From: SAR116 cluster bacterium AG-335-B03
GTDB taxonomy: Bacteria > Pseudomonadota > Alphaproteobacteria > Puniceispirillales > Marisalimonadaceae
Assembly (NCBI GenBank): GCA_003282435.1
Contig: QBZG01000009.1
Coordinates: 1 to 46,698 of the forward strand
Direction of reading: 5' to 3'
DNA length: 46,698 nt
The translations under genes were made by a program, and so were the position numbers. A model generated the notes under the pieces. The model made no database searches. It was not told the origin of the DNA and was given only the letters and a program-made list of their open reading frames with translations. Every line of letters begins with the position of its first letter. Positions within the stretch are counted from its first letter, which is position 1. Below, in pieces: positions 15,131 through 17,489 of this stretch.

Positions 15131-15994
15131 ATTTTTAATATTATACCACTAATTTTTGTTTTCCTTTGGTCTTCAGCATTTATTACTAGCAAAATTATAG
15201 TTGACAATTCAAGCCCTTTTATGGCTCTTTCATTCAGGTTTAGTATTGTTGCGTTCTTTTTTTTCTTATTTTTTATTTTTTTTTCAAACAATAAAAAAAT
15301 TTCCTTAAAAGCCTTTAAAGATGCATCTATAAGTGGTTTATTATTTCATGGATTTTATTTAGGTGGTGTTTTTTATGCCCTTTCAAAAGGAATATCAGCT
15401 ACACTAATAGCTCTAATAGTTTCTTTACAACCAATTTTAACATCTATTCTTGCGAAAATTTTTTTGAATGAGACTTTATCTAAGTTTCAGTGGTTGGGCA
15501 TTTGTGTCGGATTTTTTGGAGCATTAATTATAATTACCTCTGACATAATAGAAGGCCTAACTATTTTTGCATTTTTTGCTGGGTTGATTGGTTTAACTGC
15601 TTCATCTCTTGGCATAATATGGCAAAAGAAAATAGGATCTGATTTGCCACTTTTAGGAAATAATTTTTTACAAGCTTCAAGTGCCTCAATCTTTCACCTT
15701 TTTCTTGCACTTTGTTTTGAAGATTACTTCATAAACTTTTCAAATAAGTTTATTATAGCTATGTCATGGCAAATATTTGCAGTTTCACTTGGAGCTTTCT
15801 TGATACTGATGTGGTTGCTAAAACACAATAAAGCTAATCAAACATCTACTTTATTTTTTTTAGTTCCTCCTGTTTCAGCCTTAATGGCATTTATAATACT
15901 AAACGAACAATTTTCTTATTGTGATCTAATTGGTTTATCTCTTTCGTGTGTTGGCGTTTTTATAGTAACAAGGTCCCAAGAAAAAATTTCATAA
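15131..15994 (+). CDS. DMT-superfamily (EamA) transporter with no standard start codon
   Basis: Inner-membrane protein with two EamA repeats and about ten helices. Motifs include FLWSSAFITSKI in helix 1, SLQPILTSILAKIFLNE at the end of repeat 1, and LVPPVSALMAFIILNEQF in repeat 2. The first ATG is at 15221, but the frame is open from 15107, and 15131-15220 encodes an intact, family-like first helix. No ATG, GTG or TTG lies in 15107-15220. The ATT at 15131, with AGAG 6 bases upstream, is one possible rare start. An ATG at 15098 in frame is followed by CTT and then TAA (15104-15106). Either the start is unusual or one base is wrong. Substrate unknown. Confidence 0.75.
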   Translation: MFNIIPLIFVFLWSSAFITSKIIVDNSSPFMALSFRFSIVAFFFFLFFIFFSNNKKISLKAFKDASISGLLFHGFYLGGVFYALSKGISATLIALIVSLQPILTSILAKIFLNETLSKFQWLGICVGFFGALIIITSDIIEGLTIFAFFAGLIGLTASSLGIIWQKKIGSDLPLLGNNFLQASSASIFHLFLALCFEDYFINFSNKFIIAMSWQIFAVSLGAFLILMWLLKHNKANQTSTLFFLVPPVSALMAFIILNEQFSYCDLIGLSLSCVGVFIVTRSQEKIS

Positions 15995-16051
15995 TATAAA
16001 TTATATTGTCTTTTTTTTATTAATTGTTATGTTTTAGATATCAAAGTCTTT

Positions 16052-16218
16052 TTGTGTGAGAGCGTTTTTTTAAACCACCGAAGGAGCAACCACCCCGGAA
16101 ACTCTCAGGTACCCGAAACATAAAAAGTTGATAATCTGGAGAGCGATGAATTTTTTCATCCACCGAAGGGGTAAGCCAATTTTTTGGTCAATCTTTCAGG
16201 TTCCGTGACAGATGGGGT
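16052..16218 (+). promoter_or_regulatory. Tandem glycine riboswitch
   Basis: Two glycine aptamers in series. Aptamer 1 (about 16054-16121) has GAGAGCG, CACCGAAGGAGCAA and ACTCTCAGGTACCCGAAACA. After a short linker, aptamer 2 (about 16136-16216) has GGAGAGCG, CACCGAAGGGGTAAGCC, CTTTCAGG and GACAGATGGGG. These blocks match the glycine riboswitch consensus in order and spacing. A weak promoter (TTGTCT 16006, TATGTT 16028) would start transcription just before it. It lies 40 bases upstream of the DadA-like gene, which it should control. Confidence 0.95.
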
Positions 16219-16252
16219 AAATTGTATTTTACAATAAATTTGTTACGGAGTT
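16199..16252 (+). promoter_or_regulatory. Predicted ribosome-binding-site sequestering helix of the glycine riboswitch
   Basis: TTCCGTGACA (16201-16210), part of the conserved 3' strand of aptamer 2, can pair continuously with TGTTACGGAG (16241-16250), which holds the CGGAG Shine-Dalgarno of dadA. That is ten pairs with two G-U wobbles. The loop between contains a second hairpin, ATTGTA-TTT-TACAAT (16221-16235, one base either side). Forming the aptamer would use up the first strand, so glycine binding should free the ribosome binding site (an ON switch acting on translation). Pairing is read directly; the mechanism is inference. Confidence 0.55.
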
Positions 16253-16256
16253 TCTT

Positions 16257-17489
16257 ATGAAAAATATAGCAATTATTGGCGCAGGAATAACTGGAATAAC
16301 TACTGCCTATCAACTTTTAGAAAGAGGATATACAGTCTCAGTTTTTGACAAAAATCGTTATGCGGCTATGGAAACGAGTTTTGCTAATGGAGGTCAATTG
16401 TCTGCATGCAATGCTGAAGTGTGGAATAGTTGGTCAACAATAGGTAAGGGTATCAAATGGATGCTCAAAAAAGACGCACCTCTGTTATTCAGTCCTAAAT
16501 TAAATTTTCATAAAATTGGCTGGTTACTGAGTTTTATTTCTAATATTCCCAATCATAAAAAAAATACAATATTAACAGCAAAAATGGCAATAGAAAGTAG
16601 AAATGAACTTAAAAGAATTCTACAAATCGAAAAAATTAATCTAGATCTTGAAGAAAAAGGTATTATACATCTGTGCGATAGTTATGATTCTTTGAAAGAG
16701 GGAAGAAAAGTGAATAAATGGCTTGCTGAAGCTGGATTAGATCGTAAAGAAGTGACATTGGACGAAATGTTATCCATTGAACCAACTTTAAATCTAGAAA
16801 ACTTTGTTGGTGGATTTTATACAAAAAGTGACATGTCTGGGGATATTCATAAATTTACTAAGTTACTTGCAGATACCTGTGAAAAAAAAGGTGTGAAGTT
16901 TTATTATGAAACAGAAATAACTAGCGTTAATCACAACAAACAACAACCTATAATAATTTTTAAAAGATCCAATCAATTACAAAAACATAATTATGACGGT
17001 ATTGTTATTTGCGCAGGGGTTAATAGCAAATTTATAGCTAATGGATTAGGTGATAACGTCAATATATATCCAGTTAAAGGTTATTCAATTACTTTATTAC
17101 TTAATGATAAAGAAAGTGTTAATTATGCTCCTTATGTTTCGTTACTTGATGACAAAGCAAAAATAGTCTCAAGCAGATTAGGAAAGGACAGACTCAGAGT
17201 TGCTGGCACTGCTGAGTTTAATGGTTATAATAGGGATATTAGAGCGGATAGGATAAACCCCTTAATTAAATGGTGTAATGAAATTTTTCCAAATGTATCT
17301 ACGGAACATGCAATTCCGTGGGCAGGATTGAGACCAATGACACCTAGTATGGTTCCAAAAGTTGGAAGCGGTAAATTACCAGGTGTATTTTATAATACTG
17401 GTCACGGACATCTTGGGTGGACCTTAAGTGCATTAACTTCTCAACAAATTTCAGATCATATTATGAGAAAAGATAACTATATTAACTAA
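16257..17489 (+). CDS. dadA: D-amino-acid dehydrogenase (DadA-like FAD amino acid oxidoreductase)
   Basis: FAD-dependent deaminating oxidoreductase of 410 residues, close to the family's usual size. The dinucleotide motif is GAGITG (8-13). ETSFANGGQLSA (39-50) is the DadA-type FAD segment, and the C-terminus carries PWAGLRPMTP and GHGHLGWTLS. The family oxidises D-amino acids to keto acids and passes electrons to the respiratory chain. Control by a glycine riboswitch suggests glycine, or an amino acid whose metabolism meets glycine, as the physiological substrate. CGGAG lies 6 bases upstream of the ATG. The stop is 3 bases from the convergent gyrB stop. Confidence 0.9.
   Translation: MKNIAIIGAGITGITTAYQLLERGYTVSVFDKNRYAAMETSFANGGQLSACNAEVWNSWSTIGKGIKWMLKKDAPLLFSPKLNFHKIGWLLSFISNIPNHKKNTILTAKMAIESRNELKRILQIEKINLDLEEKGIIHLCDSYDSLKEGRKVNKWLAEAGLDRKEVTLDEMLSIEPTLNLENFVGGFYTKSDMSGDIHKFTKLLADTCEKKGVKFYYETEITSVNHNKQQPIIIFKRSNQLQKHNYDGIVICAGVNSKFIANGLGDNVNIYPVKGYSITLLLNDKESVNYAPYVSLLDDKAKIVSSRLGKDRLRVAGTAEFNGYNRDIRADRINPLIKWCNEIFPNVSTEHAIPWAGLRPMTPSMVPKVGSGKLPGVFYNTGHGHLGWTLSALTSQQISDHIMRKDNYIN

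Follow-up and report, generated by a model that had tools for sequence, protein, structure and literature searches.

The 5′ leader of a dadA-like gene from SAR116 cluster bacterium AG-335-B03 is most likely a tandem glycine riboswitch that turns dadA translation ON, a reading to which our folding models and comparisons lead us to assign a probability of roughly 0.75. Its central element is a helix formed between the second glycine aptamer and the Shine-Dalgarno (SD) sequence of dadA. This anti-SD helix is real, is well conserved in the host family, and is mechanistically plausible. The window, by which we mean the whole stretch of 46,698 nucleotides that was analyzed, carries on its + strand a gene for an EamA-type transporter (15221-15994), the 5′ leader, and the dadA-like gene (16257-17489), in this order. 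On the 3′ side of dadA lie gyrB and then a recF-like gene, both on the − strand. The nearest named relatives in the public collection are 92-97% identical in DadA and are mostly labelled SAR116 cluster. The features of the locus are collected in Table 1.

Table 1. Features of the dadA locus, in positions of the window
Feature	Position	Strand	Evidence or remark
P0 leader strand, partner 16129-16133 (linker between aptamers)	16039..16043	+	A-U to G-C at 16040/16132 in 13/52 leaders
Glycine aptamer 1 (Rfam RF00504)	16045..16130	+	57.8 bits, gathering 32
C-tract in P3b loop of aptamer 1, 5′ strand of P5 pseudoknot	16092..16096	+	pairing in 52/52 leaders
Glycine aptamer 2 (Rfam RF00504)	16126..16221	+	55 bits, gathering 32
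P0 linker strand	16129..16133	+	pairs with 16039-16043
P1 of aptamer 2, 5′ strand AUCUG	16134..16138	+	invariant, 52 leaders
Switch strand (P3 end, joining strand, and P1 3′ strand of aptamer 2), 5′ arm of anti-SD helix	16198..16213	+	core 16201-16212
P1 of aptamer 2, 3′ strand CAGAU, common to anti-SD strand	16209..16213	+	invariant, 52 leaders
G-tract right after aptamer 2, 3′ strand of P5 pseudoknot	16214..16218	+	pairing in 52/52 leaders
3′ arm of anti-SD helix	16238..16253	+	core 16239-16250
Shine-Dalgarno ACGGAG, 6 nt 5′ of start codon	16245..16250	+	read directly; ATG at 16257
dadA-like FAD-dependent amino acid dehydrogenase, 410 aa	16257..17489	+	Pfam DAO 1.4e-63; NCBIfam NF009074 D-amino acid dehydrogenase 627 bits, cut-off 494

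Each aptamer passes the RF00504 gathering threshold separately. The two abut at 16126-16130 and a single gene begins 36 nt past aptamer 2, an arrangement of tandem aptamers with a single expression platform. No further RF00504 site was found in the genome to which the window belongs (∼66% complete), and a phage search with the leader as query gave no matches. Membership in the glycine-GGAnGA variant (RF03166), which has the same clan and tandem layout, was considered and rejected: the score of 60.7 bits lies under the gathering value of 110, and both aptamers fit RF00504.

Among 58 genomes of the host family, 53 carry dadA, and each of these 53 also has RF00504 matches directly upstream of the gene. 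Two aptamers are seen in 52 of these leaders; the remaining one (G035) shows a single aptamer, its contig starting inside the riboswitch, and was excluded from the 52-leader alignment and from the covariation, P0/P1, P5, and forced-P1 counts given below. The five family genomes that lack dadA (completeness 57-78%) also lack the riboswitch. A GGAG lies no more than 20 nt from the start codon in 49/53 leaders. One of the dadA genes, that of G022 (L049), is interrupted by a single in-frame TAA and is otherwise conserved; the leader of this genome is without GGAG and its anti-SD helix is broken.

Two further structures are conserved along with the aptamers. The P0 helix between leader and linker is present, with 92.2% of its cells paired and two pairs changed on both sides across the 52 leaders. 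The P5 pseudoknot forms 5-7 uninterrupted pairs in 52/52 leaders, whereas shuffled tails reach five in 19% of cases, and its two tracts occur in compensatory sets (ACCCC/GGGGU, GCCCC/GGGGC, CCCUA/UAGGG). On MAFFT columns, where the tract of genus g4 is split, 89.6% of P5 cells are paired. As in the duplex and window tests described below, the P5 shuffles preserve single-base composition only. According to the available part of PMC13104608, which cites Torgerson 2020 on this point, P5 is often found in glycine riboswitches of the ON type and is missing from those of the OFF type. The presence and covariation of P5 in the aligned dadA leaders are counted in favor of the ON reading.

A sequence-only reading of this DNA had proposed that ten nucleotides of aptamer 2 can pair without interruption with a segment that includes the dadA SD. 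This pairing is exact: TTCCGTGACA at 16201-16210 and TGTTACGGAG at 16241-16250 form ten pairs, two of them G-U. The minimum-free-energy fold enlarges the helix to 12 pairs (16201-16212/16239-16250), and the longest uninterrupted run comprises 16 (16198-16213/16238-16253), covering the whole of ACGGAG. The same reading had placed the strand in the aptamer core, and the Rfam alignment agrees, pairing 16209-16213 with 16134-16138 in P1 of aptamer 2 and 16200-16201 with 16162-16163 at the base of P3. Since the switch strand is drawn from P1 and P3 of aptamer 2, the aptamer and the full anti-SD helix are mutually exclusive, as had been claimed. In the minimum-energy fold of the window leader, UAGAU (16035-16039) captures the 5′ P1 strand of aptamer 2, a pairing that would favor the OFF state; by eye, conservation of this competing strand is not apparent in the leader alignment.

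An invariant aptamer strand might match an SD purely by chance, and the window by itself gives this explanation some room. With the switch strand fixed and the spacer shuffled, a run of at least 12 pairs arises in 15/5000 trials; when the whole leader is shuffled, the SD region finds such a run in 44/2000, which makes the evidence from a single sequence only moderate. The dadA run of 16 is nonetheless the longest among the 24 window genes that have an SD-like motif and enough upstream DNA, the next being 10. Conservation of the helix in 53 related leaders removes the doubt. In every one of them (53/53) the duplex is equalled by at most 15 of 300 shuffled spacers, even though the arms lie anywhere between 11 and 27 nt apart. 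Over the 12 core pairs, 585/636 cells (92%) are paired in the 53 leaders, compared with 37-48% when the partner is slid by 1-3 positions, and all 12 pairs form in 31/53. Given this retention, the contrast with slid partners, the length of the run among window genes, and the compensating changes described next, we reject chance complementarity, which has hardly any probability left.

The clearest compensating change is at 16205/16246, where the letters are G-C in 34 leaders, G-U in 3, A-U in 14, U-U in 1, and N-U in 1. An A at 16205 faces U in 14/14 leaders, and a G faces C (34) or U (3). At the neighboring positions, 16207/16244 is G-C in 34, G-U in 17, and G-A in 2, and 16206/16245 is U-A in 43, U-G in 8, and U-U in 2. 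On the MAFFT alignment of 52 leaders, 93.5% of cells are paired and one of the 12 pairs has changed on both sides. The covariation score of the helix is reached by 0/500 shuffles, but the numbers of changed pairs and of changed pair types do not exceed those in shuffles. On a tree of 72 DadA proteins, position 16205 needs three changes; two independent lineage pairs are available, and in 1.8 of them, on average, the partner changes in the same direction (in this count the arms of G001 and G002 are out of register). The anti-SD covariation is genuine and comprises few independent events. This scarcity is expected of a helix that joins invariant aptamer core to a ribosome site. The covariation check that had been suggested for 16201-16210/16241-16250 is thus positive, if sparse: pairing is held in 92% of cells with a G-C to A-U exchange at 16205/16246, and the events behind it are few, at two lineage pairs.

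The helix is not uniform within the family. All four letters at 16247-16250 are paired in 41/53 leaders. The ten leaders of genus g4 pair just a single one of these letters (7 leaders) or two (3 leaders), and the SD lies partly outside the 12-pair core. Their loop is 11 nt long (e.g., L022 and L069), and in this genus the switch may be weaker or may operate in another way. In six genomes (G003, G009, G015, G022, G044, and G045), the helices are broken into runs of 5-7 pairs. Three of these form a lineage (G015, G009, and G044; leaders L006, L008, and L023, respectively) in which pairs away from the SD are lost, while the spacer letters that face AGG are CC and not UU, converting two G-U pairs to G-C. 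The anti-SD helix of these three leaders seems to be shifted in the direction of the start codon.

The mean unpaired probability of the SD in the window leader is 0.13 in the unconstrained ensemble, 0.81 with both aptamers enforced, and 0.00 with the anti-SD helix enforced. The value of 0.81 comes from a model in which aptamer 1, P0, and aptamer 2 are enforced and the joining and P5 strands are barred from pairing. The rise from 0.13 to 0.81 is the outcome that the sequence-only reading had anticipated for folds with and without the aptamer, and it makes a translational ON switch the best reading of the data. The two aptamers, their exclusive pairings, the conservation of both, and the predicted change in SD access in the window leader are computed results.

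The effect is smaller across the family when only P1 of aptamer 2 is forced. SD openness then rises in 49/52 leaders, from a mean of 0.15 to 0.41, and reaches at least 0.5 in 18/52. It barely changes in most g4 leaders (e.g., from 0.25 to 0.26 in G049 and from 0.31 to 0.31 in G048). An SD equally open in both states had been named beforehand as evidence against the switch; such equality is clearly avoided in the window leader and only weakly in many relatives. The ensemble energy is −42.1 kcal/mol for the aptamer-formed state and −68.3 kcal/mol for the free fold, by a nearest-neighbor model that leaves out glycine, the pseudoknot, tertiary contacts, and co-transcriptional folding. With the aptamer state so far above the free fold in a ligand-free model, the balance of the switch is an assumption.

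This gap of 26 kcal/mol between the free fold and the fold with both aptamers enforced, along with the weak opening predicted for the SD of many relatives, is what one would expect if the helix were a constant damper that sets a low basal level of translation, the OFF fold being so much more stable that glycine hardly shifts it. A mere damper, however, would not need two aptamers, P0, and P5, all of which are conserved with covariation. The order of synthesis also speaks against it, as the aptamer would be complete before the 3′ arm is transcribed. We consider a constant damper improbable.

A somewhat stronger, though still unlikely, alternative is that the controlled step is transcription. 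The anti-SD helix followed by a U-rich spacer would then be an intrinsic terminator before the start codon whose formation is prevented by glycine, and the output would still be ON. Of the 8 nt that follow the 3′ arm, at least five are T in 46/53 leaders, compared with 6/25 window genes (dadA included). Terminator-like hairpins are also found in two of three scanned gcvT riboswitch leaders of the host order, one in each against 0.4 and 0.2 in shuffles. In contrast, a scan of the dadA leader, which covers loops of 3-8 nt and would miss a long loop, found no terminator-like site. The U-rich spacer is itself partly occupied: at least three further spacer letters pair with the aptamer in 31/53 leaders, and beyond the helix so extended 14/53 keep at least five T residues. 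The spacers vary by lineage (CCTATG, AGAATT, GTTGTG, TAAATTTT), and all four core letters of the SD are inside the helix in 41/53 leaders.

We therefore favor control of translation, with the following mechanism. Without glycine, 16198-16213 would pair with 16238-16253 and bury the SD in a helix of 12-16 base pairs. With glycine, aptamer 2 would retain the switch strand in its own P1 and P3, leaving the ribosome site open. The P5 pseudoknot (16092-16096/16214-16218), together with aptamer 1 acting through P0, may help aptamer 2 to keep this strand. We infer that glycine is bound, that translation and not transcription is the controlled step, and that the direction is ON. A catabolic target gene also fits an ON switch. 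The translational ON switch predicted by the sequence-only reading thus gains support from the modeled change in SD openness, the exclusive folds, and the family conservation, and its mechanism retains the character of a model.

The pairing becomes less regular beyond the family. Another 19 dadA genes occur in the host order, bringing the total to 72/136 genomes. RF00504 reaches threshold in 18 of these 19 leaders, and both aptamers do so in only four. Four of the 19 do not contain the searched motif and thus fall outside the duplex test; among the 15 testable leaders, six are at or below 15/300 shuffles and nine miss that mark. At wider alphaproteobacterial dadA loci (outside SAR116), 16 of 20 scanned have RF00504, seven of them twice. 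The duplex test is passed there by 13 of 38 testable leaders (43 in all), including those of Phyllobacterium and relatives and some Acetobacteraceae, and 25/38 miss the mark. Two Acetobacteraceae leaders (L134 and L156) have A-U against U-A at the same helix step. Leaders of the g12 clade mostly fail the test and by eye seem to be in another register. In some g12 leaders (e.g., L083 and L090), a hairpin of the type GAGGUGUAU/AUACACUUU after aptamer 2 adjoins the SD, and the L090 spacer 3′ of the SD is able to base-pair with the aptamer strand (CAAAGAC/GUCUUUG), so that the switch may have a register of its own there.

Related leaders that keep the aptamer and lose the pairing, which the earlier reading had listed as telling against its proposal, are not found in the host family, where 53/53 keep the duplex. 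They do appear farther out, in the 9/15 order-level and 25/38 wider leaders noted above. The exact anti-SD helix is a family-level feature with scattered counterparts and not a universal property of dadA leaders.

The choice of dadA as a target can be viewed against the glycine metabolism of the host family. No match to gcvT exceeds the curated cut-off in any of the 58 family genomes, including 6/6 that are at least 90% complete, whereas 10/14 control genomes do exceed it. Weaker gcvT matches are present in 55/58, the best at 233.2 bits (G016) against a cut-off of 235.85. Four of these, that of G016 among them, were checked as candidates for GcvT and rejected, their best scores being to other families: trimethylamine N-oxide demethylase (over cut-off), DMSP demethylase (two, below cut-off), and sarcosine oxidase alpha (part of the protein). 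From their sequences, the weak matches look like relatives of GcvT, not GcvT. Likewise, gcvP is over cut-off in none of the 58 genomes, with one weak match in G044, the only family genome among the 48 genomes with any gcvP match; the controls for gcvP gave matches in 10/14, of which 3 were over cut-off.

Across the order, gcvP is over cut-off in 41/136 genomes, divided between 3/72 with dadA at E 1e-100 (G066, G067, and G123) and 38/64 without it. This split was counted by hand, and the clustering of lineages means that its members do not represent independent events. A further three genomes with dadA (G097, G106, and G109) have gcvP fragments below the cut-off. Six riboswitch loci from dadA-less genomes of the order were inspected, each followed by a GcvT-like open frame; three were checked and all three were confirmed with NCBIfam.

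Malate synthase G is over cut-off in 40/58 family genomes, including the six nearly complete ones. At E 1e-10, DadA matches only two solved structures, both of glycine oxidases (7cyx and 4ysh), whereas its NCBIfam equivalog is D-amino acid dehydrogenase. Protein comparison suggests that DadA may handle glycine. Because neither gcvT nor gcvP is over cut-off in the 58 genomes, DadA may be the glycine catabolic enzyme there. We tentatively propose, at a little under even odds, that this SAR116 family has lost glycine cleavage and carries its only glycine riboswitch on DadA, which would then be responsible for glycine catabolism (glycine to glyoxylate, and on to malate via malate synthase G). By this proposal, many Alphaproteobacteria would have dadA as a target of the glycine riboswitch, and SDs particular to each lineage would have captured the aptamer-2 strand.

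The dadA target, together with what looks like a loss of the customary glycine system, is a reason for follow-up. The gene is probably glycine-controlled in a marine lineage where the search for glycine cleavage genes came back empty. This has a bearing on glycine use by SAR116 bacteria and makes the true substrate of DadA directly testable. The leaders also offer a natural series for a translational glycine switch, in which one strand is fixed by the aptamer and the ribosome site has tracked that strand across dozens of genomes.

The switch is of a known kind, and dadA is a little-noticed target for it. Neither a glycine riboswitch nor any riboswitch was found together with a D-amino acid dehydrogenase in the open-licence literature (supplements excluded), a search that does not prove absence from print; one match of "dada" with glycine riboswitch was discarded because it is the name Dickeya dadantii, not dadA. 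In the part of PMC12452182 available, gcv genes are enriched under paired glycine aptamers in Pseudomonadota, thiO is under TPP only, and an entry for dadA was not found. The glycine riboswitches of SAR11 (Pelagibacter) likewise belong to marine alphaproteobacteria and have glycine- or glyoxylate-linked targets, but the available portions of the reports place them before glcB and gcvT, not dadA (PMC2704228, PMC5069720, PMC2211319). Closer to the host, the gcvT riboswitches of its own order (L201-L206) share with the dadA leader the aptamer family, the GACAG strand, and the G-tract. They differ in that GcvT-like frames follow and, in two of the three scanned (L202 and L205), a terminator-like hairpin comes after the G-tract. 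The host order may thus use two different platforms on two glycine riboswitch targets, gcvT and dadA.

The closest precedent for the SAR116 dadA leader, judged from the available part of PMC13104608, is the tandem gcvT riboswitch of Neisseria gonorrhoeae. That riboswitch controls gcvT and gcvH and not dadA, and it is also an sRNA target. Its P0 and kink-turn are apparently absent, whereas the SAR116 leader has P0. It was tested with mutants and immunoblots, whereas the SAR116 switch is predicted from sequence and folding. The two nevertheless share tandem aptamers, a single platform, and an aptamer-2 segment whose pairing partner lies immediately 5′ of the start codon. Translational ON control, described for N. 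gonorrhoeae, is the likely mode in SAR116 as well, and a P5 pseudoknot is possible in the N. gonorrhoeae riboswitch.
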